64,000 nt of DNA from Xanthomarina gelatinilytica (GTDB lineage: Bacteria; Bacteroidota; Bacteroidia; Flavobacteriales; Flavobacteriaceae), in the NCBI RefSeq assembly GCF_000348685.1, contig NZ_ANLA01000004.1:496001-560000 (forward strand). The letters run 5' to 3'. Numbering within the stretch: the first letter of the stretch is position 1; every line of letters begins with the position of its first letter. Below, in pieces: positions 16,419 through 27,595 of the stretch. Made by a program: the position numbers and the translations under genes. Below the pieces are notes generated by a model. That model had not been told where the DNA came from, searched no databases, and worked only from the letters and a program-made list of their open reading frames with translations.

Positions 16419-17966
16419 CTACGTATTGTCTACATTAAAATAACCACCTTTGTTTTCTTTTCTGTTTAAAGATTGCCCAATGATTAAATGGGCTACATTC
16501 ACCATGTTTCGCAATTCGCAAAGTGTGGTGGATATTTTAGAAGTTTTGTAAAGCTCTTCCACTTCGTTATATATCATGTCCAAGTGCGTGATGGCTTTGT
16601 TTAAACGGTCGTTGCTTCTAACAATTCCCACATAATCACGCATTAAAGCCTGAAGTTCTTTTAAGTTGTGTTTTATCAATACATGTTCTTTGGGCATGCT
16701 TGTACCTTCGTCGTTCCAATCAGGAAGAAACTTTTGTATATCCAACACCTCATGTTTGCAAAGATATTTGTAAATGTTATGCGCATACACCAAGGCTTCC
16801 AAAAGGGAATTGGAAGCCAATCTATTGGCGCCATGAAGTCCTGTTCTGGTACATTCACCACAAGCAAATAGGTTATTTATGGAAGTTTTCCCGTGTGAAT
16901 CAACCACAATGCCTCCACAGAGATAATGTGATGCCGGAACCACAGGAATCCAATCTTTCGAAATATCTATATGATGTTCCAAACAGGTTTTATAAATATT
17001 GGGAAAATGGTCCCTAAAGGATTTTAAATCCAAGTGGGTACAATCTAAAAACACACAAGGGTCACCAGATTTTTTTAGTTCGGTATCAATACTTTGCGAG
17101 ACAATATCCCTTGAGGCCAATTCAGCACGTTTATCGTAATTGGGCATAAACCTAGTGCCATCTTTGGTGCGCAAATAAGCGCCAAAACCTCTCACTGCTT
17201 CCGAAATTAAAAAAGCAGAACCTTCTTGATTGGTGTATAAAGCCGTGGGATGAAACTGAACAAATTCCATATCCTTAATTCTAGCTTTAGCTCTATATGC
17301 CATGGCTATACCATCTCCTGTGGCAATGGCTGGATTGGTTGTGTGACCATAAACCTTGCCAATGCCACCTGCAGCCAAAACCGTGCAATTTGATTGTAAC
17401 GTAAGGACCTTTCCGGTTTTCTGATTTAATACATAAGCACCATAACAACTAATGTTTTCCGAAACTTGTTTTAATTGATGTTCTGTAATTAAATCAATAG
17501 CAAAATGATGTGGCAACAAGCTAATATTTTTAAGTTGGTGCACTCTGGCCAATAACGCGCGTTCTATTTCGTAACCAGTGATATCTTTATGGTGCACCAC
17601 CCGAAATTGGCTATGTCCTCCTTCTTTTCCCAAATCGAGATTTCCGGTTTGGTCCAAATCAAACTGAGCTCCCCAAGCCATAAGTTCCTTTAACCGTTTG
17701 GGACCTTCAGTAATAACCATGTTTACAACGTCTATGTCACATAAACCATCTCCAGCAATCAAGGTGTCTTGAATGTGTTTTTGAAAGGAATCTGTTTTTT
17801 CATCAAGAACAACAGCCACGCCACCTTGTGCATATTTGGTGTTGGATTCGTCTTCATTACCTTTGGTTACTATGGTAATCTGTTTTTCAGGAAAAGCTTC
17901 AGCATGTTTTACAGCCAAGGTCAAACCTGCAACGCCAGAACCAATAATGAGTAATTGGGTTTTCAT
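16419..17966 (-). CDS. nadB: L-aspartate oxidase (quinolinate pathway)
   Basis: This is an FAD-dependent L-aspartate oxidase of about 515 residues. The dinucleotide motif GSGVAGLTLA is at the N-terminus. The substrate and active-site segments GGHSQFRVVHHKD, EFVQFHPTALY, ELASRDIVSQSI and HGANRLASNSLLEALV are typical of NadB within the succinate dehydrogenase flavoprotein family. It oxidises aspartate to iminoaspartate, which NadA condenses with dihydroxyacetone phosphate. The frame extends further upstream to 17999, but the ATG at 17966 (MKTQLLIIGSG) is 4 nt downstream of the nadA stop and gives the normal N-terminus. It is clearly an operon with nadA. Confidence 0.95.
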   Translation of the reverse strand: MKTQLLIIGSGVAGLTLAVKHAEAFPEKQITIVTKGNEDESNTKYAQGGVAVVLDEKTDSFQKHIQDTLIAGDGLCDIDVVNMVITEGPKRLKELMAWGAQFDLDQTGNLDLGKEGGHSQFRVVHHKDITGYEIERALLARVHQLKNISLLPHHFAIDLITEHQLKQVSENISCYGAYVLNQKTGKVLTLQSNCTVLAAGGIGKVYGHTTNPAIATGDGIAMAYRAKARIKDMEFVQFHPTALYTNQEGSAFLISEAVRGFGAYLRTKDGTRFMPNYDKRAELASRDIVSQSIDTELKKSGDPCVFLDCTHLDLKSFRDHFPNIYKTCLEHHIDISKDWIPVVPASHYLCGGIVVDSHGKTSINNLFACGECTRTGLHGANRLASNSLLEALVYAHNIYKYLCKHEVLDIQKFLPDWNDEGTSMPKEHVLIKHNLKELQALMRDYVGIVRSNDRLNKAITHLDMIYNEVEELYKTSKISTTLCELRNMVNVAHLIIGQSLNRKENKGGYFNVDNT

Positions 17967-17970
17967 TTGT

Positions 17971-18930
17971 TTATTTAGAAAGTTCAAGCATGCGTTCAAT
18001 AGGGAGCAATGCTTTTTTTCTTATAGGTTCAGGTACATCTATCTGAGGGCTTTCATTTAATAAACAATCGTATAATTTTTGAAGGGTATTTACCTTCATA
18101 AACGCACATTCACTACAAGCACAGGTGTTGTCCTCTTCGGCTGGAGCAGGAATTAAAAGGGTGTTTGGCACTTCTTGTTGCATTTTATGCAAGATGCCAG
18201 CTTCTGTGGCAACAATAAATTTTTCCTGTGGATGTGTTTTTACATAATTTATCATACCAGCTGTAGAACCAATATAATTTGCTGCATCGAGAATATGTGC
18301 TTCAGATTCTGGATGTGCAATAATTTTAGAGCCAGGATGTTCTTTGTATAATTTTAAAAGTTTATCTATTGAAAACGCTTCATGCACAATACAAGAGCCA
18401 TCCCATAGCACTAAATCCCGACCAGACACTTTGCTGATATAATGACCTAAGTTTTTATCTGGAGCAAAGATGATGGGGATTTCCTTTGGTACAGATTCCA
18501 CAATCTTTAAAGCGTTGGATGATGTACAAACAATATCGCTCATGGCTTTAATTTCTGCCGAACAATTGATATAAGTAATCACCAAATGGTCTGGATGCTG
18601 TTCCTTAAAAGCTTTAAAAGCTTCTGGAGGACAGGAGTCAGCCAAAGAGCACCCAGCATTTAAATCGGGTAAAACAACTGTTTTGTCAGGGTTTAAAATT
18701 TTAGCCGTTTCAGCCATAAAATGCACACCTGCAAAAACAATGATATCAGCATCTGTTTCTGCAGCTTTTTGCGACAAGCCCAAGCTATCTCCAACATAAT
18801 CAGCAACATCCTGTATTTCCGGCACTTGGTAATAATGTGCTAAAATAACGGCGTTCTTTTCTTTTTTTAAACGAAGGATTTCTTTTTTTAAGTCCAAAAC
18901 TTTTAGATAATTACGGTTTTTACAAGCCAC
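17971..18930 (-). CDS. nadA: Quinolinate synthase A (4Fe-4S enzyme)
   Basis: This quinolinate synthase has up to 319 residues. Cluster cysteines are visible at Cys94 ([10 protein letters not shown]), Cys180 ([11 protein letters not shown]) and in the C-terminal [10 protein letters not shown] around 270-275. The substrate-binding segment [20 protein letters not shown] is conserved. The enzyme makes quinolinate for NAD synthesis with an oxygen- and NO-sensitive [4Fe-4S] cluster. No ATG is available before the conserved region. The start is either the GTG at 18930 or a TTG about 12 codons later, so the N-terminus is uncertain. A -7 box (TATCTTTG, 18984-18977) lies about 47 nt upstream, and a palindrome overlaps the predicted transcription start. 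The gene is divergent from the Rrf2 regulator gene. Confidence 0.94.
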
Positions 18931-19019: not shown

Positions 19020-19027
19020 TATCTTTG
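19020..19027 (+). promoter_or_regulatory. Probable -7 promoter box of the Rrf2 gene
   Basis: TATCTTTG matches TAnnTTTG exactly. A TTG that could serve as the -33 element is at 18992-18994, with a rather long spacer of 25 nt. The last three bases of the box are the first possible TTG start codon of the gene, which argues against that start. Confidence 0.55.
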
Positions 19028-19039
19028 AAAAAAAATACT

Positions 19040-19519
19040 GTGTTATCAAATGCGTGTCAATATGCTATAAGATCCATTCTTTATTTAGGAATGTGTTCCG
19101 ATGAAAAGCATAAAATAGGAGTGAAGATTATTTCAGGAGAATTAGAAGCACCTCAACCTTTTTTGGCTAAATTACTGCAACAATTAAATAAAAATGGTTT
19201 GGTTACTTCTACAAAAGGACCTTATGGTGGGTTTTATTTAAGCGAAGAAAACAAAACCAAAACCGTTTGGGATATTGTTCTTGTAATTGATGGTAATGAA
19301 AGGTTCAGTCAGTGCTTTTTGGGACTTTCTAAATGTGGCGACAGCAATCCCTGTCCTGTGCATTTTACGGTTTCGGCATTCAAGGACAAATTGTTCAAGG
19401 ATTTTAAGGACAAAAGCATTGCAGAGTTTGTGGAAGAAATAAAGGTTAAAGGGAGGTATATTTCGTTAAAATCTTTTGATGTCTTAAAAACAGATTCAAA
19501 GCCTAAGACCATTGATTAG
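19040..19519 (+). CDS. Rrf2-family transcription regulator with C-x6-C-x5-C motif
   Basis: This Rrf2-family winged-helix regulator has about 159 residues. The N-terminal helix LSNACQYAIRSILYLG and the recognition region PQPFLAKLLQQLNKNGLVTSTKGPYGGFYLS are typical. Three cysteines follow as C-FLGLSK-C-GDSNP-C, the Fe-S ligand region of IscR/NsrR-type sensors. NsrR-type members sense nitric oxide, and this gene lies directly beside an NO reductase operon. The frame is open from TTG 19025, but that codon is part of the predicted -7 box. GTG 19040 gives the usual MLSNACQYAI start and an almost leaderless mRNA. The 3' end overlaps the convergent norB-like gene by 24 nt. NO sensing is inferred. Confidence 0.85.
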   Translation: MLSNACQYAIRSILYLGMCSDEKHKIGVKIISGELEAPQPFLAKLLQQLNKNGLVTSTKGPYGGFYLSEENKTKTVWDIVLVIDGNERFSQCFLGLSKCGDSNPCPVHFTVSAFKDKLFKDFKDKSIAEFVEEIKVKGRYISLKSFDVLKTDSKPKTID

Positions 19520-20821
19520 CTTTCTTAATATAGGTAAACCAATAAACACCATACTTGTGGTGAGTGTTATTCCAAACACGAAAAAAGCCATATAGACCCA
19601 GAACAAACTCTCTTGCATGTTTGAAAAAGAGGTGTCGTTTCCTGCGTACATCCAATGACTTCTTCTGGCACCAGCTACCAATAAAGCCATAAAGAACAAA
19701 AAGAGTGAGATATTAAATCCCAAAAGACTTCTTTTTATAGAAGTTTCTTCTTTCTTGGTAAAAGCAGATATCCTAGAAACTATAAATAAAAGCGAAGCAA
19801 ATAAAATGCTTGTGTTAATACCAATGGTTGTTCCCATGGAGTGCGCTACTGTAATATGTGTGCCATGGGTAAAGAAATTTATGGCTGGAATGGAGAAAAG
19901 CAATGCAATGATTAAATTGACGAATATCCAGAAGTCTGTTGTCACTAAAAATCTATAAGCCAAAGGGTAACTGTCTTTTTCTGTCTTGGTTAGGCTGCGT
20001 CTCCATTCGTAAATCATATATCCCAAAACAATCCATTCGGTCATGCTTACGCCATAAGCCACATAACGAATCCATGGTAATGTAGGAACAATATAGGTAT
20101 GATGTGCCCAACCAAACATGAGATTTGTTAAGCCCAGAAAATAGAAGAAGAAAGCCAGTTTACCCCTTCCAATGGCATGGTCTCCTTTTATTTTGGCCAT
20201 CACGTAAATAGAAATTCCATAAACCAACATATTCCAAGAGCCAACAAAAGAACCATAAGATTTCCACTGAACCGTTAAATCTTTTATAACATGCTCCCTA
20301 AAATATGGCATTAACCACAAATGAGCTTCGGTTAAATGAATCATCATAAAAACAATTCCAGTTCCCCACATCCAATAATAAACAGGCCAGTTTTTAACCT
20401 GTTTCAGCATGGTTTTAAAATAGTTAATCCCAAAAAGAAGCCAACCAAACAAAATGGGAATGGTTAAAATTGGGGTAAAAGCCAAGTATTCCCTGCCTTC
20501 CATTTTCCCGAAGAAATAAGACAGGTAGATGCCAATTCCTGTAATAAGAAATACAATGAAATGAGTTTTCATTAATTTATCTGAAAATAATTTGAACTTT
20601 TCAACTTGGCTCAAGTAAAAATAAATACTTCCAGTAGCACAAAGCACTATCCAGGTAATCACTGTTGTTACATGAAACGGTCTCATTTTATGAAACGGTA
20701 AAAGGTCCTTTAAGAACTCAGGAATGAGATACTGTAAGGCAGCCAAAAGCCCAAAAGCAACACCCATTAACAAAGCTAAAAGAGCTGTAATTAAAAAAAG
20801 GGTACTGGTTTTATTTTTCAT
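19496..20821 (-). CDS. Second NorB-like haem-copper oxidase-family subunit I with altered ligands
   Basis: This 441-residue protein has about 12 membrane helices and aligns with NorB at 25794 across its length. It keeps the low-spin haem His50 (RPFH), the TM-VII pair His240-His241 (WAHHTYI), Glu262 and the high-spin haem His327. By alignment anchored on Trp186, Trp196 and the HH pair, the TM-VI FeB ligand is Tyr189 instead of His, the catalytic Glu is Val193, and the second low-spin haem His is Met329. Extra His162, Glu165 and His167 lie in the preceding helix. It is the last gene of the nor operon and overlaps the cytochrome c gene by 11 nt. The activity is unknown: NO reduction, another nitrogen-oxide reaction, or electron transfer only. 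It should not be called cbb3 oxidase. Confidence 0.85.
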   Translation of the reverse strand: MKNKTSTLFLITALLALLMGVAFGLLAALQYLIPEFLKDLLPFHKMRPFHVTTVITWIVLCATGSIYFYLSQVEKFKLFSDKLMKTHFIVFLITGIGIYLSYFFGKMEGREYLAFTPILTIPILFGWLLFGINYFKTMLKQVKNWPVYYWMWGTGIVFMMIHLTEAHLWLMPYFREHVIKDLTVQWKSYGSFVGSWNMLVYGISIYVMAKIKGDHAIGRGKLAFFFYFLGLTNLMFGWAHHTYIVPTLPWIRYVAYGVSMTEWIVLGYMIYEWRRSLTKTEKDSYPLAYRFLVTTDFWIFVNLIIALLFSIPAINFFTHGTHITVAHSMGTTIGINTSILFASLLFIVSRISAFTKKEETSIKRSLLGFNISLFLFFMALLVAGARRSHWMYAGNDTSFSNMQESLFWVYMAFFVFGITLTTSMVFIGLPILRKLINGLRL

Positions 20822-21242
20822 TTTTATACTCTAATTCAATCCAACCACTCGGTTTAAATATAGCATGGTAGTTTGGATAATATCCAGTGCTATCCACAAA
20901 TTTTAAATAACTAACCAAAGCTTCTTTTTCGCTTTCAGAAAAGTTGAATTTTGGCATTGTTTTTACACCGCTGTTTAAAAAGGCTTTAATGTATTGAGGG
21001 CCTTTATTTTTTGCACTGTACACATTGGTTAAATCTGGACCCAAATAGCCTCCCAAACCATAGGTTTGATGGCAAGACCAACAATTGTTTTCCTGCCATA
21101 AACGCTGCCCGTGAAGTGCTTGTTCCGTTAATATTACTGGATTTGCGTTTTCTTTAGAGGTGTAAACAAATCCATTGTAAACAACAAAAAGAATGAGCAA
21201 GATGCTTATAATGGCAATATTGTATTTGGTCTTTTCGGTCAT
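20811..21242 (-). CDS. Membrane-anchored monohaem cytochrome c (second NorC-like)
   Basis: This 143-residue protein has one N-terminal membrane anchor (about residues 8-27) and a periplasmic cytochrome c domain. The haem site is Cys54-x-x-Cys57-His58 (CWSCH) and the probable axial ligand is Met96 (KTMPKF). It resembles NorC at 27152, with the same spacing and the same EQALHGQRLWQENNC pattern. The tail beyond the haem domain is longer (DSTGYYPNYHAIF and on). It should feed electrons to the NorB-like subunit encoded next, whose start it overlaps by 11 nt. The upstream small subunit gene is 1 nt away, showing tight coupling. Confidence 0.92.
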   Translation of the reverse strand: MTEKTKYNIAIISILLILFVVYNGFVYTSKENANPVILTEQALHGQRLWQENNCWSCHQTYGLGGYLGPDLTNVYSAKNKGPQYIKAFLNSGVKTMPKFNFSESEKEALVSYLKFVDSTGYYPNYHAIFKPSGWIELEYKNEK

Positions 21243-21243
21243 A

Positions 21244-21480
21244 TTAAATTATTAAAACCAAACCAATAAAAATGGTTAAGAATGCAATTAACAAGGCTTT
21301 CCAGAACGTATTGGCATGACGTAATTCCATAAAATAAAAAGCAACTGCCAAAAATTTAAAAGCAGCTAAAACCATAATGATTGTGGCAGCATTTTCCAAA
21401 TGTGAATTTGCAACAACAGCCGATAAAACGGTTAATGCAATTAACAATATCAAAACATAAAAAAAAGGGTTCTGTTTCAT
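21244..21480 (-). CDS. NorF/CoxIV-like small membrane subunit
   Basis: This 78-residue, highly hydrophobic protein has three predicted membrane helices. The central segment FKFLAVAFYFMELRHANTFWKALL matches the prokaryotic cytochrome c oxidase subunit IV family, to which NorF-type proteins are related. It probably stabilises or helps assemble the oxidase-like complex. It lies 1 nt after the subunit III gene and 1 nt before the cytochrome c gene, so the four products are likely made in step. Confidence 0.8.
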   Translation of the reverse strand: MKQNPFFYVLILLIALTVLSAVVANSHLENAATIIMVLAAFKFLAVAFYFMELRHANTFWKALLIAFLTIFIGLVLII

Positions 21481-21481
21481 C

Positions 21482-22060
21482 TTAAAACACTAAATAAATT
21501 ACAGGGAACAACAACAGCCAAATAAGGTCACACATATGCCAAAAAGTGGCACTGGCTTCCACATCTTCCATAATGAGTTTTTCGGGGTTTTTATTCATGG
21601 TCCTAAAAACAGAAGCTAAAATCACCAGTCCAACCAAAACATGAATCACGTGAAATAGCGTTAACATCCAATAAAAGGAAAAGAAGGTGTTGTAGCCCAT
21701 GGTTAGTCCAGCTTCAATTTTATCAAAGTATTCTACGGTCTTCAAGCCTAAAAACAACAACCCTCCAAGCATGGTCAGTTTTAAGTATGTTTTTGATTTT
21801 GATAGGTTGTTTGTTTTTAAAGCAGTAACTGTAAGAGCCATAAAAAAGCCACTAACCAATAAAAACAAAGTATTTATGGCACCAAAGGTAGTGTTTAACT
21901 GCAACCTGGACTCATGGAAAATGCTGGCTTCGTCTTTGCTGTATAATGCCATGGCCACCAAAACGGCTCCAAAGGTGAACAATTCCAAATACACTATAAT
22001 CCACATTAAAATACCACCTGGTGGATAATAAAGTGATGCTTTTGTAGTAACTTGACTCAT
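21482..22060 (-). CDS. norE: NorE/cytochrome c oxidase subunit III-like protein
   Basis: This 192-residue protein has five predicted membrane helices and subunit III-family features: WIIVYLELFTFGAVLVAM, the FHVIHVLVGLVIL segment and the closing ATFWHMCDLIWLLLFPVIYLVF. NorE proteins of denitrifiers are stand-alone subunit III relatives that raise NO reductase activity by an unclear mechanism. It is part of the minus-strand nor operon, 10 nt after the DUF438 gene and 1 nt before the small subunit IV-like gene. It may instead be a true subunit of the second NorB-like complex encoded downstream. Confidence 0.85.
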   Translation of the reverse strand: MSQVTTKASLYYPPGGILMWIIVYLELFTFGAVLVAMALYSKDEASIFHESRLQLNTTFGAINTLFLLVSGFFMALTVTALKTNNLSKSKTYLKLTMLGGLLFLGLKTVEYFDKIEAGLTMGYNTFFSFYWMLTLFHVIHVLVGLVILASVFRTMNKNPEKLIMEDVEASATFWHMCDLIWLLLFPVIYLVF

Positions 22061-22070
22061 AATCTCAATG

Positions 22071-23045
22071 CTAATCCCAATCTAACAATCTTTTTTGTCC
22101 TTCTAGTTTTTGGATTTCTGTAATGTCTTGAGACATTTCTATAACCCCTTTATAGGTTTTGTTTTTGTCCCTTATGGCAAAATATCTAATATGGATGATT
22201 CGCCCTTTAAAGTTGAACCAAAACTCGGCAGAGTCCTTATTTCCTGCTTTAAATTCCTCTAAAATCCTTAAAACCATGTCCACACTTTTTGGTGGATGGC
22301 AAAAACGTACTTCTCTTCCAATAATCCCTTTGCTTCTTGCAAACACTCGGTCTTCTCCACGATTGTAAAAAATTACTTTGTCGTTTTCATCTACATAAGT
22401 AATGTCTACAGGTAAAAACCTCAATAATAAATTTACCTGTTCGGGAGTCATGTAACCTTCGTCGTAATGAAAAGTGTTTTCTATAGAAAATCTTTGTGTG
22501 CGATCTGTTAGGTCTTCACTTGGATGTATATATTTTGAATCTTTATTTGGAAAAGGCGCAGGCTTTTCTTTAAGCATCCAACCAATTTCCTCGTCTCCTT
22601 CATAAAATTCCTCCCAATCTTCTTTGGTTAGCAAACGCATGGCGTTGGGAAACAATTTTTGATCCTCAATAAGCATTAATCGTTTTATACCTTCCAATAA
22701 ATAAGGAAGGTTTTCAGTGATTTTTTCCACATCTTTTGTTTCGTTGTGTTTGTGCAGCAGTTTAATTTGCTCTCTTAATACATCATGAAAAGACCACATA
22801 CCTTGACTTGGCCCATTCCAATGATGTTTTTCTAAATACGGAAAAAGCTGATTTTCTTTTCGTTTGAAGCGCTTTTCAATTGTGGTGAGTTGATTGAAAA
22901 TATTAAAGTATTTTTGAAAATCTTCTGATACTTTCACATCGTATAATTCTAAAATCAAGTCCTGAATCAACGCGCTTTCTTGATAATATACCTGCAAAGG
23001 ATGTCCTTGTTCCAACTTTTCTACTTCGGGTAAGTATGAATTCAT
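22071..23045 (-). CDS. DUF438 hemerythrin-like/PAS protein in the nor operon
   Basis: This soluble 324-residue protein has two parts. Residues 1-150 form a helical DUF438/hemerythrin-like domain, seen in HPLQVYYQESALIQDL, RKENQLFPYLEKHHW and IEDQKLFPNAM, whose His and Glu residues can bind a di-iron centre. Residues 205-320 are a PAS domain (VDITYVDENDKVIFYNRGEDRVF to GVIEMSQDITEIQKLEG). There is no kinase or DNA-binding domain. Hemerythrin-like proteins such as YtfE handle NO or repair Fe-S damage, and PAS domains bind haem or small ligands. The gene lies 2 nt after norD and 10 nt before norE, so a role in NO sensing or NOR assembly is plausible but unproven. Confidence 0.85.
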   Translation of the reverse strand: MNSYLPEVEKLEQGHPLQVYYQESALIQDLILELYDVKVSEDFQKYFNIFNQLTTIEKRFKRKENQLFPYLEKHHWNGPSQGMWSFHDVLREQIKLLHKHNETKDVEKITENLPYLLEGIKRLMLIEDQKLFPNAMRLLTKEDWEEFYEGDEEIGWMLKEKPAPFPNKDSKYIHPSEDLTDRTQRFSIENTFHYDEGYMTPEQVNLLLRFLPVDITYVDENDKVIFYNRGEDRVFARSKGIIGREVRFCHPPKSVDMVLRILEEFKAGNKDSAEFWFNFKGRIIHIRYFAIRDKNKTYKGVIEMSQDITEIQKLEGQKRLLDWD

Positions 23046-23047
23046 GT

Positions 23048-24817
23048 TTAACTTTGATGCTTTATTTTTTCGTAGAGTTTCACTAACGATTGTAACAACT
23101 CTACAGGTGTTGTTAATATTTGATAATGGTTTTGCCCAAACATTTGTGGCAAATAATATTTTGCTTGTGCTTCAATAGCCAAAGCATAAGAATTGATGTT
23201 TCGCTGATTTAATTCACGAAGCGCCTGCTTCACATCGTTGATGCCGTATTTGCCCTCGTATTTATCGTAATCGTTGGGTTTTCCGTCTGAGATTAAAATA
23301 ACCCATTTGTTTTTTGTGTCCCTTGAGTCCAACAAAGCGCCCGAATGACGTAAAGCAGCACCAATCCTGGTGTAGCCACTAGGTTCCACAGCGCCAATTT
23401 TGTGTTTGGCCTTATCCCAAGTGTCGTCAAACCCTTTTAGGGAGAGATAGGTGGCGTAATTTCTGGTTTTGGAATAAAAGCTTTGAATGGAGAAATCAAC
23501 ATTGAATTCATTAAGGATTTCACCAAAAATAATGGATACTTGTTTTTCAACATCAATAACTTTATTGCCTCCAGCATAACCATCACTGGACAGACTGACA
23601 TCCAATAGTATTAAAATGGAAAGGTCTTTGTCTTTTTTACGTTTGGACAGGTATATTTTTTCTGAAGGTGTGTGTCTGGAATGGACATCTACATACAAAT
23701 CTGTGATGGCATCCAGATCAAAATCCTCACCTTGGGTTTGCCTGCGTTGTTGTTGGTATTTGTTGTTAACCGACGTTAACATTTTACGCAATCCTGTTAA
23801 GGTTGAAGCATTTTTTTGAAGTGTTTTTTTATAATATGCAGTATCTGTTTCCTGTTGTATTTTGGGATAGACCTTGCAAAATTTTGGTTTGTACTCCCTT
23901 TTGGAAAAATCCCATTCGTCGTAAGCAATATGTGGAGCTTCGGTATTTAGTTCGGTACTTTCGGAAATGGTAGTGTTTTCAATAAATTCTGCTTGATAAA
24001 TGGAATGTGTTGGGTCGTCTACCCTAACGGTATGTTTCATGTTAAGGTCTTCCAAGGCATTGGCATGATCATCCAGATCGTCGTCGCCATCAAAATCCCT
24101 CCAGCCACCTTCCCATTCTTCGGCAGTTTCAATTTTTTCAAAATTATGTGTCATCACATAATCTTCCTGTTGTTTTTTATCAATTTCCAAAGAGGTGATT
24201 TCCTCTACGGCATTGGCTTTTAAAATGGTATTTATTTCCTGGTCTATGGCTTGTTTTACTTGTTCTGAGATGTTGTTTAAAACGGCTTTTTTTAAGATTT
24301 TAGGATCGTTTTTCATCCATTTACCATAAATAAAGCTTAAGTCTTCAGGCTTTTTGTCTGTTGCCATTTTAAAATAATGGGAAATAAGTTCCTGATGGAT
24401 ATGTTTGGTAATGGGGAATTGGTTAAACATGTCATTTAAGACCAACGTGGATGTTTCTTGGGCTTTTTCCCGAGCATGTTCTAAGGTAAACTCTTCTTCA
24501 GCAGTAAAGTTTAAGTCCAAGTTTTTTTGAACAGATAGGTATACTATCCTAAAAATATAGAACTTGGTATTTTGTTCCAAGGTTTGAAACTCGGCATATC
24601 GAGAGGGCAGAAAAAAACTGTTGTTTTTATAGCCACCTTCACGTTCGGCTTCAAAAATTTCAATGGCTTCACCGGTTATGGCTCTGGAAAAAATGGTAAG
24701 TCGCTGTTTGATATCGTTTAATTTTACAGCATGTTCCAGTGTTTCCTGAGCTTGCTTTTTACGTCGCTTTAAGAAATTAACTACTTTGGAATAGATGAAT
24801 TCATCTGGTTCAAACAT
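23048..24817 (-). CDS. norD: NorD, von Willebrand A-domain assembly factor of NO reductase
   Basis: This 589-residue protein has a long N-terminal helical region. At about residues 400-585 is a C-terminal VWA domain with the metal-site motif D-x-S-x-S in LILLDVSLSSDGYAGG and a second acidic site in ILISDGKPNDYD. NorD pairs with the AAA+ protein NorQ to insert the non-haem iron of NO reductase (by analogy with CbbQ/CbbO). The acidic middle section (around residues 235-265) is rich in Asp and Glu. It starts with ATG 10 nt after norQ. The length agrees with other NorD proteins. Confidence 0.92.
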   Translation of the reverse strand: MFEPDEFIYSKVVNFLKRRKKQAQETLEHAVKLNDIKQRLTIFSRAITGEAIEIFEAEREGGYKNNSFFLPSRYAEFQTLEQNTKFYIFRIVYLSVQKNLDLNFTAEEEFTLEHAREKAQETSTLVLNDMFNQFPITKHIHQELISHYFKMATDKKPEDLSFIYGKWMKNDPKILKKAVLNNISEQVKQAIDQEINTILKANAVEEITSLEIDKKQQEDYVMTHNFEKIETAEEWEGGWRDFDGDDDLDDHANALEDLNMKHTVRVDDPTHSIYQAEFIENTTISESTELNTEAPHIAYDEWDFSKREYKPKFCKVYPKIQQETDTAYYKKTLQKNASTLTGLRKMLTSVNNKYQQQRRQTQGEDFDLDAITDLYVDVHSRHTPSEKIYLSKRKKDKDLSILILLDVSLSSDGYAGGNKVIDVEKQVSIIFGEILNEFNVDFSIQSFYSKTRNYATYLSLKGFDDTWDKAKHKIGAVEPSGYTRIGAALRHSGALLDSRDTKNKWVILISDGKPNDYDKYEGKYGINDVKQALRELNQRNINSYALAIEAQAKYYLPQMFGQNHYQILTTPVELLQSLVKLYEKIKHQS

Positions 24818-24827
24818 GATTTTTTAT

Positions 24828-25670
24828 TTAAATCATTAAATCGCACAAATCCGATAAAGCTTCGGTAATTTCGATGTCGTCTGTTAAAGGTTCAACCACT
24901 GCTACACGAACGGCCAAACGTTTGCCCAAGCCAGTGTGAATAAGTTTGGCAGCATCCACCAATAAACGTGTGGATACAGTTTCGGTCAAGCCTAATTCTG
25001 TAAGGTTTCTAATTTTATTGGCAATAGCCACTAGTTTTTTTGCTGTTGAAGCGTCAATTTGTGTTTCGTTGATTAAAATTTCGGCTTCGTCCTTTTCATT
25101 GGGATAGTTAAAGGCTAAAGCTATAAAACGCTGCCTGGTTGAAGGTTTTAATTCCTTAAAACCTTTTTGGTAACCTGGATTAAAAGATGCCACCAACATA
25201 AAGTCTGGATGTGCTTTTATGGTTTTACCCAATTTATCGATATAGAGTTCTTTTCTGTGATCTGTGAGGGAATGAATGGCCACAATAACATCTGGTCTGG
25301 CTTCTGCAATCTCATCTAGATAGATTACGGCTCCTTCTTTTACAGCTTTGGTAAGAGGGCCATCTATCCATACGGTTTCGGCTCCTTTTATGATATAACG
25401 ACCAATTAAATCTGTGGAAGACGTTTCTTCATGACAGGAAATGGTAATTAATTCTTTGTTCAATTTATGGGTCATAAAATCCACAAAACGTGTTTTTCCG
25501 GTACCAGTTGGCCCTTTTAATAACATGGGAATTTTGTTTGTAAAAGCCTGTTCAAACACTTCAATTTCTTTAGCTATAGGTTTATAGAAAGGTGTTTCAG
25601 TGTTTGTATGTTGGGTTTCTGTTTTCAAAATAGTGGGTTTTAAACTAGGTTTTATTAGTGTTTTTTCCAT
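24828..25670 (-). CDS. norQ: NorQ, AAA+ ATPase for NO reductase maturation
   Basis: This 280-residue MoxR/CbbQ-type AAA+ protein has Walker A GPTGTGKT at 53-60 and Walker B in AVIYLDEIAEARPDVIVAIHSLTDHR. Sensor 1 lies in FMLVASFNPGYQKGFKELKPSTRQRFIAL, and a CbbQ-type C-terminal region follows. With NorD it remodels or metallates NorB. The N-terminal 25 residues are a less conserved, threonine-rich extension. The gene follows norB after 123 nt of non-coding sequence containing a possible long stem (25685-25779) and precedes norD by 10 nt. Confidence 0.94.
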   Translation of the reverse strand: MEKTLIKPSLKPTILKTETQHTNTETPFYKPIAKEIEVFEQAFTNKIPMLLKGPTGTGKTRFVDFMTHKLNKELITISCHEETSSTDLIGRYIIKGAETVWIDGPLTKAVKEGAVIYLDEIAEARPDVIVAIHSLTDHRKELYIDKLGKTIKAHPDFMLVASFNPGYQKGFKELKPSTRQRFIALAFNYPNEKDEAEILINETQIDASTAKKLVAIANKIRNLTELGLTETVSTRLLVDAAKLIHTGLGKRLAVRVAVVEPLTDDIEITEALSDLCDLMI

Positions 25671-25793: not shown

Positions 25794-27137
25794 TTATAAA
25801 TCGGATTCTAAGTCTAAAGCTTCATCTGTTGGTTTTCCATGTTTATAAAAATCCCAGATATACATTACTATTCCAGTTGCAAACATGGTAGCACATAAAA
25901 TTAGTACCACAAAGTGGATGCTAATTTCAGCTTGAACTTCCATAAAGTCCATTTTAAATTTACGTTCTAAATATACTTGTGCCACACCAGCAACGCCAAA
26001 GGCCACTGTCATTCCTAGCATGCCAATATTGGAGAGCCAAAATGCTGCTCTACCAACACTGCTATCGTATAGTTTTCTACCTGTCATGTTTGGTAAGGCA
26101 TAGCTAATAATGGCCAACACAATCATGGCGTAAGCTCCCCAAAAGGCTAGGTGACCATGCATGGCTGTTACCAAGGTACCATGTGTGTATAAATTTGTTT
26201 GTGGCAAGGTATGTGCAAACCCTAATAAACCTGCACCTACAAAGGATACGATGGCTGAACCAAGGGTCCAGAACAAAGCTATTTTATTAGGGTGTTTCTT
26301 TTCCCCTTTTCTATACATGTTTACTGCAAACAAAGCCATTGCTAAGAAAGCCAAAGGTTCCAATGCAGAGAAAATACCACCCACAATTAACCAAATTTTG
26401 TTAACACCAATGTAATAGTAGTGGTGACCAGTTCCAAGAATACCTGATAAGAACGTTAAACCAACAATTACATATAGCCACTTTTCAATCACTTCTCTAT
26501 CAACACCAGTTAATTTTATCAATAAGAAAGATAAAATACCTCCCATAATCAATTCCCATACGCCTTCAACCCATAAGTGTACAACCCACCATCTGAAAAA
26601 GGAGTCTGTTACCTGACTGTCAAAAGGAAGCATACCAGGAATATAAAGTAATGCAGCAAACAGTAATCCCATAGTAAGAACCAAAGCCGTTGTGGTTTTT
26701 CGTTTTCCTTTAAAGAGGGTTGCTAAAATGAGACCTAAAAATAAAAGGACATTCACTACTACCAAATAATCCAATTGTCTTGGGATTTCTAAAAACTTTC
26801 TTCCTTCCCACCAATTGAAATGGTAACCAATTATTGCAGCTACACCAACAACAGCCAAGGAAATAAGTTGTACATAAGCAAGCTTTACACTTACAAGTTC
26901 ACGTTGAGCCTCTTCAGGAATAATATAGTAAGCAGCACCCATAAAACCAGACAAGAGCCATACAACCAACAGGTTTGTATGCACAGCTCTTGCTGTGTTA
27001 AAAGGAATAAATTCGTGTAAACCATCAAACCCAATACGAGCAAAGCCCATGATGAATCCGTAGGTAATTTGTAAAACGAGTAGTAGCATGGAAAAGGCAA
27101 AAAACCAATAGGCTACTTTTTGAGATTTATATTTCAT
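25794..27137 (-). CDS. norB: Nitric oxide reductase large subunit NorB (cNOR type)
   Basis: This 447-residue membrane protein has about 12 helices and all the hallmark residues of cytochrome c-dependent NO reductase. These are low-spin haem His53 (RAVH) and His329, high-spin haem His327 (AMHGHLAFW), FeB ligands His187 and His238-His239 (TGHHYYYIG), catalytic Glu191 (HLWVEGVWE) and Glu260 (SALEPL). It reduces two NO to N2O in the inner membrane with electrons from NorC. It does not have the long N-terminal extension of quinol-dependent NOR. It follows norC by 14 nt. Confidence 0.96.
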   Translation of the reverse strand: MKYKSQKVAYWFFAFSMLLLVLQITYGFIMGFARIGFDGLHEFIPFNTARAVHTNLLVVWLLSGFMGAAYYIIPEEAQRELVSVKLAYVQLISLAVVGVAAIIGYHFNWWEGRKFLEIPRQLDYLVVVNVLLFLGLILATLFKGKRKTTTALVLTMGLLFAALLYIPGMLPFDSQVTDSFFRWWVVHLWVEGVWELIMGGILSFLLIKLTGVDREVIEKWLYVIVGLTFLSGILGTGHHYYYIGVNKIWLIVGGIFSALEPLAFLAMALFAVNMYRKGEKKHPNKIALFWTLGSAIVSFVGAGLLGFAHTLPQTNLYTHGTLVTAMHGHLAFWGAYAMIVLAIISYALPNMTGRKLYDSSVGRAAFWLSNIGMLGMTVAFGVAGVAQVYLERKFKMDFMEVQAEISIHFVVLILCATMFATGIVMYIWDFYKHGKPTDEALDLESDL

Positions 27138-27151
27138 AGTTAGTTAGTTTA

Positions 27152-27595
27152 TTAGTTTTTATCCATTCTGTCTTTTGCCAAAGGAGATACAACAGTATCG
27201 AAACCATTTAGGTCTATGCCTTCTATCCATTCAAAGAAAGCTATCAAATCTTCAGCTTCTTCTTTTGAAAATCCGTAGGCAACCATTTGTCTGCCATTAG
27301 GATTCCAAGGAATAGGAGACATTAAAACGGCTTTGATGTAGCCTTCGCCTCGACGTTCAATGACTTTGGTTAATTCTGGTGCGTAATAAGCTCCTTCACC
27401 TAAAATGGTATGGCAACCCATACAATTGTTTTCTTCCCATAAAACTTTTCCACGAACAACTTGTTCTGTAATACCTTCATGGTTTGTTTGATCCTGCCCT
27501 TTGCTAAAAGAGAATATGGTTAATCCTATAAAGATTAAGAATGTCACCACAGTGCCTCCAAGGAAAAAAGCGCGTGCTTGTTTTTTTGATAACAT
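27152..27595 (-). CDS. norC: Nitric oxide reductase cytochrome c subunit NorC
   Basis: This 147-residue protein has one N-terminal membrane helix (about 10-30) and a periplasmic cytochrome c domain. The haem motif is Cys58-x-x-Cys61-His62 (CMGCH) and the axial ligand is probably Met104 (GRQMVAYGF). The conserved ILGEGAYYAPELTKV segment is typical of NorC. It is the first gene of the nine-gene nor operon. The promoter (-7 box 27649-27642) and a CRP/FNR-like palindrome lie directly upstream. It supplies electrons to NorB, encoded 14 nt downstream. Confidence 0.96.
   Translation of the reverse strand: MLSKKQARAFFLGGTVVTFLIFIGLTIFSFSKGQDQTNHEGITEQVVRGKVLWEENNCMGCHTILGEGAYYAPELTKVIERRGEGYIKAVLMSPIPWNPNGRQMVAYGFSKEEAEDLIAFFEWIEGIDLNGFDTVVSPLAKDRMDKN

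Follow-up and report, generated by a model that had tools for sequence, protein, structure and literature searches.

A conserved NorB-like protein of Bacteroidota, paired with its own cytochrome c and predicted to lack the metal ligands of transmembrane helix VI

We have analysed a 64,000-nucleotide stretch of the Xanthomarina gelatinilytica genome (positions 496,001 to 560,000 of contig NZ_ANLA01000004.1; hereafter the window, to whose first letter all coordinates refer), in which nine minus-strand genes follow one another from 27595 to 19496: norC, norB, norQ, norD, a hemerythrin-PAS gene, a COX3-like gene, a COX4-like gene, an adjoining cytochrome c gene (cytC2) and, last, the gene for a NorB-like haem-copper-type subunit I that we call X. 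To judge from aligned sequences, X has lost both metal ligands of transmembrane helix VI (TM VI) as well as the second histidine of the low-spin haem, and retains the proximal His327 of haem b3, the low-spin-haem ligand His50, the pair His240-His241, Tyr243 and Glu262. What is conserved around it is a two-gene module, X plus cytC2, which recurs in many Bacteroidota.

The locus and its conserved unit

The features of the locus are as follows:

19496..20821, minus strand: X, NorB-like haem-copper-type subunit I of 441 amino acids (PF00115, 104.8 bits against a cut-off of 34.8)
20674-20672, minus strand: codon of H50 in X
20329-20327, minus strand: codon of E165 in X
20254-20252, minus strand: codon of G190 in X
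20242-20240, minus strand: codon of G194 in X
20104-20099, minus strand: codons of H240-H241 in X
20038-20036, minus strand: codon of E262 in X
19843-19841, minus strand: codon of H327 in X
19837-19835, minus strand: codon of M329 in X
20811..21242, minus strand: cytC2, monohaem cytochrome c with CxxCH and a conserved Met (Cytochrome_CBB3/Cytochrom_C)
21244..21480, minus strand: COX4_pro small membrane protein (PF03626), presumably NorF-like from its size and place
21482..22060, minus strand: COX3-like protein (PF00510), which we take to be NorE-like
22071..23045, minus strand: hemerythrin and PAS domain protein (PF01814, PF13596)
23048..24817, minus strand: NorD-like VWA protein, named from domain and place (PF13519/PF00092)
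24828..25670, minus strand: NorQ-like AAA+ ATPase (PF07728; PF08406, CbbQ/NirQ/NorQ C-terminal)
25794..27137, minus strand: canonical cNorB, our comparison protein (3o0r_B, E 1.6e-112; HLWVEG, GHHY and HGH in register)
27152..27595, minus strand: NorC (PF00034)
19025..19519, plus strand: Rrf2-family regulator, convergent to X (PF02082, TIGR00738 above cut-off)

The last four open reading frames of the run (19496-22060) are spaced by -11, 1 and 1 nucleotides, just as the preliminary description of this DNA had reported, the 11-nucleotide overlap being that between the 3' end of cytC2 and the start of X. The 3' ends of X and of the Rrf2 regulator overlap by 24 nucleotides, and the regulator reached only 26.2 bits with the NsrR model NF008240, whose cut-off is 182. 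Judged by eye, cytC2 is anchored N-terminally. X is one of four PF00115 proteins in the host genome, the others being an A-type oxidase and a fused cbb3 subunit (both assigned by sequence) and the true NorB. The hemerythrin-PAS gene (22071-23045), which lies between norD and the COX3-like gene, has relatives at 7 of the 92 further X loci described below.

A protein search of the order (296 genomes) found X in nine, the other eight proteins being 44-62% identical to it (E <1e-100), and the next match below them, at 3e-15, was the cNorB of genome G025. A scan of public genomes at a loose threshold gave at least 559 relatives, from which the best 80 loci, all at least 50% identical, were retained. 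A usable X was obtained from 92 of the 93 loci examined, the fragment at L122 being excluded from the residue counts (its genome, G467, is still among the 58 considered below); these counts cover 93 rows, namely the 92 loci and the window. The rows are not all independent, because L006 and L068 are apparently one contig, and a non-redundant set of 69 rows (<88% identity) served as a check. Matches to X were also present in 232 plasmid records, all below 60% identity; the best 15 are 22-25% identical, and some of these 15 carry a nitric-oxide reductase annotation.

At 91 of the 92 loci cytC2 adjoins X, the exception being L101, where X starts at base 1 of the locus. The CxxCH motif and the conserved Met (Met96) are present in all 87 cytC2 sequences that passed the gap filter, and the gene overlaps the start of X at 69 of 87 loci (with start codons assigned mechanically). 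As in cNOR, X is thus accompanied by a separate monohaem cytochrome c subunit, the NorC-like cytC2. The COX3 and COX4 genes are found at 26 of the 92 loci, in 25 cases together with norD; at several loci kilobases separate them from X, on one side or the other, and at three (L040-L042) norD occurs without them. A complex of four genes had been proposed from the window. Its own cytochrome stands, but the COX3 and COX4 genes go with norD and not with X, and synteny across the 92 loci rules out the four-gene complex.

Ligands kept and lost in X

In cNOR the ligands of FeB are three histidines and a glutamate, including one histidine and the glutamate on TM VI. The NorB of the window shows ligands of this type, the TM-VI His and Glu among them, and X does not. 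Six conserved histidines are described as a signature of the haem-copper superfamily (available text of PMC3413370); X keeps four of them and has Gly190 and Met329 at the aligned positions of the other two. Twelve residues do not vary in any of the 93 rows (H50, E111, E165, W186, K187, G190, G194, N197, H240, H241, Y243 and E262), while H319, H327 and M329 are present in all 92 covering rows and H322 in 91 of the 92. The 69-row set gives an identical list of invariant residues, H322 again falling just short of invariance. The retention of His50, His240-His241, Glu262 and His327, first noticed in the window, therefore holds throughout the family. So does the substitution by methionine that had been described with it: on TM X the H-x-H of NorB corresponds to H327-x-M329, Met329 occupying the place of the second low-spin-haem histidine in 92 of 92 rows.

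Seven groups were aligned jointly: X, cNOR, qNOR, a NOD-like protein, A-type oxidases, cbb3 and a cbb3-like group. In this alignment Gly190 of X faces the TM-VI histidine of all six others, and Gly194 faces the TM-VI glutamate of cNOR, qNOR and NOD. Alignments by hidden Markov model (HMM) to 4xyd and 9g6b also place the FeB/CuB histidine on Gly190, and in that to 4xyd the FeB glutamate falls in a one-residue gap beside Gly194. The register given by hhalign differs, with Val193 facing the glutamate and a four-residue gap over the histidine. Tyr189 had initially been taken for the replacement of the FeB histidine, but most alignments give the invariant Gly190, and the Tyr189 column is variable (Tyr in 55 rows, Gly in 22, Thr in 13, Asn in 2 and Ala in 1 of the 93). 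Val193, taken for the replacement of the catalytic glutamate, agrees with hhalign and is contradicted by the seven-group alignment, which gives the invariant Gly194; both assignments were probably one residue off. The apparent loss of the TM-VI ligands is independent of the register, because no row has a histidine in these columns: none was found in columns 181-212 of the 93 rows, whatever the register, and glutamate is restricted to the helix ends (column 181 in 2 rows, 209 in 9 and 210 in 1). No alignment thus returned to the FeB site the TM-VI histidine and glutamate that the preliminary description had said would undo its proposal. Three residues that it had listed as extra fared unequally, Glu165 being invariant (93/93), whereas His162 is present in 82 and His167 in 69 of the 93 rows; a new metal triad made of the three is weakened as a candidate, Glu165 alone being invariant.

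The residue pattern of X is beyond chance: it is repeated at 92 further loci, and the ratio of nonsynonymous to synonymous substitution rates (dN/dS) between X and four near relatives is 0.054-0.096, that of norB being 0.025-0.032 (Nei-Gojobori method, with high synonymous differences); for cytC2 the ratio was saturated in three of four comparisons. It is highly improbable, and already contradicted, that X is an ordinary nitric oxide reductase (NOR) with misaligned residues or a decaying duplicate. The ambiguity of the TM-VI register, hhalign against the other alignments, is all that would favour such an explanation, and against it stand the absence of a TM-VI histidine in 93 rows, Met329 in 92 of 92, the dN/dS values and the separate clade that X forms in the tree described below.

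Fold, descent and comparison with known classes

X has the fold of a haem-copper subunit I, as seen in its PF00115 score above cut-off, in an AlphaFold2 model built from the 69-row alignment (mean pLDDT 89.6, pTM 0.91) and in a Foldseek search with that model, whose top matches were the cNOR structures 3o0r_B (TMq 0.85) and 4xyd_A (0.86), followed by the cbb3 structure 8smr_E (0.84). In a maximum-likelihood tree of 52 sequences, all from genomes found here and with eNOR, sNOR, gNOR, bNOR and nNOR not included, the X clade (support 100) is sister to cNOR+(qNOR,NOD) (100), with a support of 98 for the node that unites the two; another clade (100) contains cbb3 together with the cbb3-like group, and X also lies outside the cox clade. 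The original view of X, that of a member of the haem-copper family in which ligands of the active site and of a haem have changed, is upheld. It could not at first be matched to a named NOR subfamily, and X fits none of the NOR classes with which it was compared: (i) cNOR (NorBC) shares with X the fold, a separate cytochrome c, His50, the histidine pair, Glu262 and His327, and the two lie in the same gene run of this window; X differs in having Gly190 and Gly194 rather than the TM-VI FeB His and Glu, Met329 for the second low-spin histidine, and in being found in genomes without detected NorD. (ii) qNOR belongs to the sister clade of X, and the residues retained in X are the same in the joint alignment except H319; X, with 441 amino acids, is without the fused N-terminal cytochrome-c-like domain (PF22085) and matches PF00115 only, and it has lost the TM-VI His and Glu and the second low-spin His. 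(iii) NOD is, like X, a protein of the NOR branch with an altered active site. In NOD-type proteins an Asn replaces one metal His and a Gln replaces a Glu (available text of PMC3413370), and the NOD-like protein L148 shows these substitutions in the columns of H241 and E262. The pattern in X is the opposite: NOD keeps the TM-VI His and the second low-spin His, and X keeps H240, H241 and E262, each in 93 of 93 rows, which rules X out as a NOD. (iv) The CcoN subunit of cbb3 has the fold (TMq 0.84) and a QW at the start of TM VI in common with X, on which the CcoN model TIGR00780 scores 34.1 bits with a cut-off of 583; X lacks the TM-VI CuB His and the second low-spin His, and lies in a separate clade. 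Neither the TM-VI CuB His nor the active-site Tyr of O2 reductases was found in X in the joint alignment, where Gly190 and Gly194 stand. (v) For sNOR, eNOR, gNOR and CuANor (bNOR), we take the diagnostic active-site position to be the Tyr/Glu position of TM VI. The residues given for these four classes are N, Q, D and N, respectively (available text of PMC8756737, Table A4), and Gly194 of X (93/93) is none of N, Q or D, although the classes were compared by description only and the register is ambiguous; moreover, according to the same text the second subunit of sNOR, eNOR and gNOR is a cupredoxin, and that of X is a CxxCH cytochrome.

Our literature search, whose coverage was partial, found no published description of the X family, and one may exist elsewhere. 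Separately, the cbb3-like proteins L188, L189 and L190 (from G282, G154 and G262; 577-583 amino acids) have the six haem-copper histidines and are sister to cbb3 in the tree; they carry a Phe that we presume to lie near the place of the cbb3 Tyr, and may be NOR-like members of the C family.

Carriers, gene surroundings and possible function

Genome-wide searches covered 58 of the 94 X-bearing handles, that is, 14 G genomes and 44 of the 80 loci, the latter hand-picked and mostly longer contigs and isolates; completeness is known for the 14 G genomes only, 12 of which are at least 90% complete. Misses are possible in the larger surveys, where no more than 3-5 candidates were scored for any one genome. 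cNorB was found in 25 of the 58 genomes and had no match in 33, and NorD in precisely the 25 with cNorB (among them 3 of the 12 G genomes that are at least 90% complete). A qNOR-domain protein above cut-off occurs in 3 of the 58, one of them NOD-like (G630 is counted as having a NOR in this tally although its PF22085 protein is NOD-like), and NirK above cut-off in 24. No cNOR or qNOR-domain match was obtained in 32 of the 58, of which 28 have nosZ (4 also nirK) and 4 have a match to neither nosZ nor nirK. Three named strains, Aequorivita viscosa, Winogradskyella jejuensis and Flavobacterium silvisoli, have both X and nosZ and gave neither a cNorB match nor a qNOR-domain match above cut-off. 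PF00115 proteins were listed for 10 of the 58 genomes: in G264 (75% complete) and G653 (A. viscosa), which have nirK, nosZ and X, the others are A-type and fused cbb3 proteins only, while G154 and G282 combine nirK, nosZ and X with a cbb3-like protein of 578-583 amino acids and are not counted as NOR-free, because that protein might be another NOR. The tie to true NOR suggested at the outset is real in the window, where X stands in one same-strand run with norCBQD, but a dependence on it is not supported, and X as an obligate cNOR accessory is ruled out by the 33 of 58 genomes that gave no cNorB.

A link to nosZ, which a single window could not reveal, emerges from the wider comparison. Clade II NosZ above cut-off is present in 52 of the 58 X genomes. 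In the order set nosZ occurs in 8 of the 9 X genomes and 35 of the 287 others (Fisher p 8.8e-7; by genus 3.5e-4), and in the phylum set in all 8 X genomes, with 127 of 395 over cut-off overall (p 9.8e-5; three X genomes are shared with the order set, and the five new ones alone give p = 0.003), all these tests ignoring kinship, with no phylogeny correction. In at least eight genomes (G241, G673, G674, G675, G678, G679, G682 and G683) a single contig carries both X and nosZ, some 7-15 kb from each other. This association in both sets, the proximity on one contig and the loss of the TM-VI ligands would suit an electron-transfer module, in which haem b3 would be six-coordinate (for example through H240 or H241) and X-cytC2 would exchange electrons with periplasmic partners such as clade II NosZ. 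We nevertheless regard this as doubtful: 35 of the 43 nosZ genomes of the order are without X, the fetched flanks contained nosZ itself at just 5 of 80 loci, at distances of 4.6-9 kb, and, because both haems of the haem-copper fold lie in the periplasmic half of the membrane, the electron chain of X would not cross it.

In the flanks of 84 loci, DUF542-hemerythrin (ScdA/Ric-type) genes occur at 41, Rrf2 at 34, Crp/Fnr at 24 and nosD at 11, and nirK lies in the fetched flank at 5 of 80. In Flavobacterium loci the X-cytC2 module belongs to an island that also contains Crp/Fnr, ScdA/Ric-type, nadA-nadB, nosD and a globin-like gene (slightly below its Pfam cut-off), together with genes labelled nrdD, nrdG and nosL by eye. 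These surroundings point to nitrosative and low-oxygen conditions.

Other neighbours recur as well. Of the 92 X loci, 53 have nadA and 55 have nadB in their fetched flanks, in varying orientations (16419-18930 in the window). A membrane protein of 405 amino acids, u405TM (L061:18348-19565 and 32 other loci), has no Pfam match; HxHSH, HFQxNGW and a third His are invariant in eight aligned sequences, and in Flavobacterium it stands beside Crp/Fnr and fasciclin genes. It was rejected as a second haem-copper protein, the hhalign probability to X being 1.6% and its sole PDB match an antiporter subunit (E 0.022). A 603-amino-acid protein, u603 (L095:18249-20060 and 31 other loci, directly downstream of X in several), gave no Pfam match and no PDB match at E 0.1. 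In G630 a NOD-like qNOR relative is divergent to the adjoining cytC2-X module (L148, L118; C1:534604-538482).

There are two further explanations. X-cytC2 might catalyse a redox reaction of some other small molecule (traces of O2, or hydroxylamine) or a side reaction near NOD-type enzymes, as the NOD-like neighbour of G630 would allow and as the invariant E165, K187 and N197 and H322 (91/92), which with Gly190 and Gly194 suggest a rebuilt pocket, would also fit; we hold this to be unlikely, as X has no Tyr at the O2-reductase position and the NOD link comes from one genome of 58. Alternatively, X could sense NO or redox state in the membrane, or take part in the assembly of NOR or NosZ. The nearby Rrf2 and Crp/Fnr regulators would agree with such a role, which we find quite unlikely: X is missing from 35 of the 43 nosZ genomes of the order, 33 of the 58 X genomes have no cNorB match, and a dedicated haem c donor fits turnover better than sensing.

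We tentatively favour the view that X-cytC2 is a cytochrome-c-fed enzyme for handling nitric oxide (NO), whose FeB site is rebuilt or absent. Electrons would pass from a periplasmic donor to the haem c of cytC2, then to a low-spin haem b held by His50 and Met329, a ligation that is to our knowledge unusual in the haem-copper superfamily, and on to haem b3 on His327. NO, or a close N-oxide, would bind at haem b3 and be reduced or scavenged there, either at this haem alone or with a metal on His240, His241 and Glu262 in place of the usual set of three His and one Glu. The nosZ-bearing Bacteroidota would use X-cytC2 against NO as oxygen runs out, with or without true NOR. A working distal pocket is favoured because the histidine pair and Glu262 are invariant (93/93), and NO handling is preferred to its rivals because of these distal residues and the gene surroundings; also consistent with it are the place of X in the tree, its dN/dS, the overlapping NorC-like partner, the regulators and ScdA genes of the flanks, nosZ in 52 of 58 genomes, the 4 of 58 where nirK and nosZ occur but neither cNOR nor a qNOR domain was matched, and the NOD-like neighbour in G630. 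Several observations weigh on the other side: (i) X is without the FeB ligands that known NORs have. (ii) Four of the 58 X genomes have no match to NOR, NosZ or NirK. (iii) The 33 X genomes in which cNorB had no match gave no NorD either (NorQ was not searched genome-wide), and NorQ and NorD are reported to be essential for FeB insertion in cNOR (available text of PMC9976466). (iv) Among the nosZ genomes of the order, NOR is present in 3 of the 8 X carriers and in 12 of the 35 that lack X (p = 1), and X as a statistical replacement for NOR is unsupported. That X-cytC2 is a new class of haem-copper enzyme, with no classic distal metal site and a His/Met haem b, dealing with NO or an N-oxide in nosZ Bacteroidota, is possible, though we would put it forward with caution.

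Bacteroidota make up the majority (53%) of denitrification 'terminators' in the available text of a 2025 genome survey, and X would probably lie outside the gene set of such surveys. Part of the nosZ Bacteroidota that carry X would at present be scored as being without NO reductase. If X does turn over NO, the nosZ bacteria said to be without NO reduction are being overcounted; otherwise, a conserved haem-copper protein whose metal site is abolished raises the question of what this fold can do without FeB or CuB.

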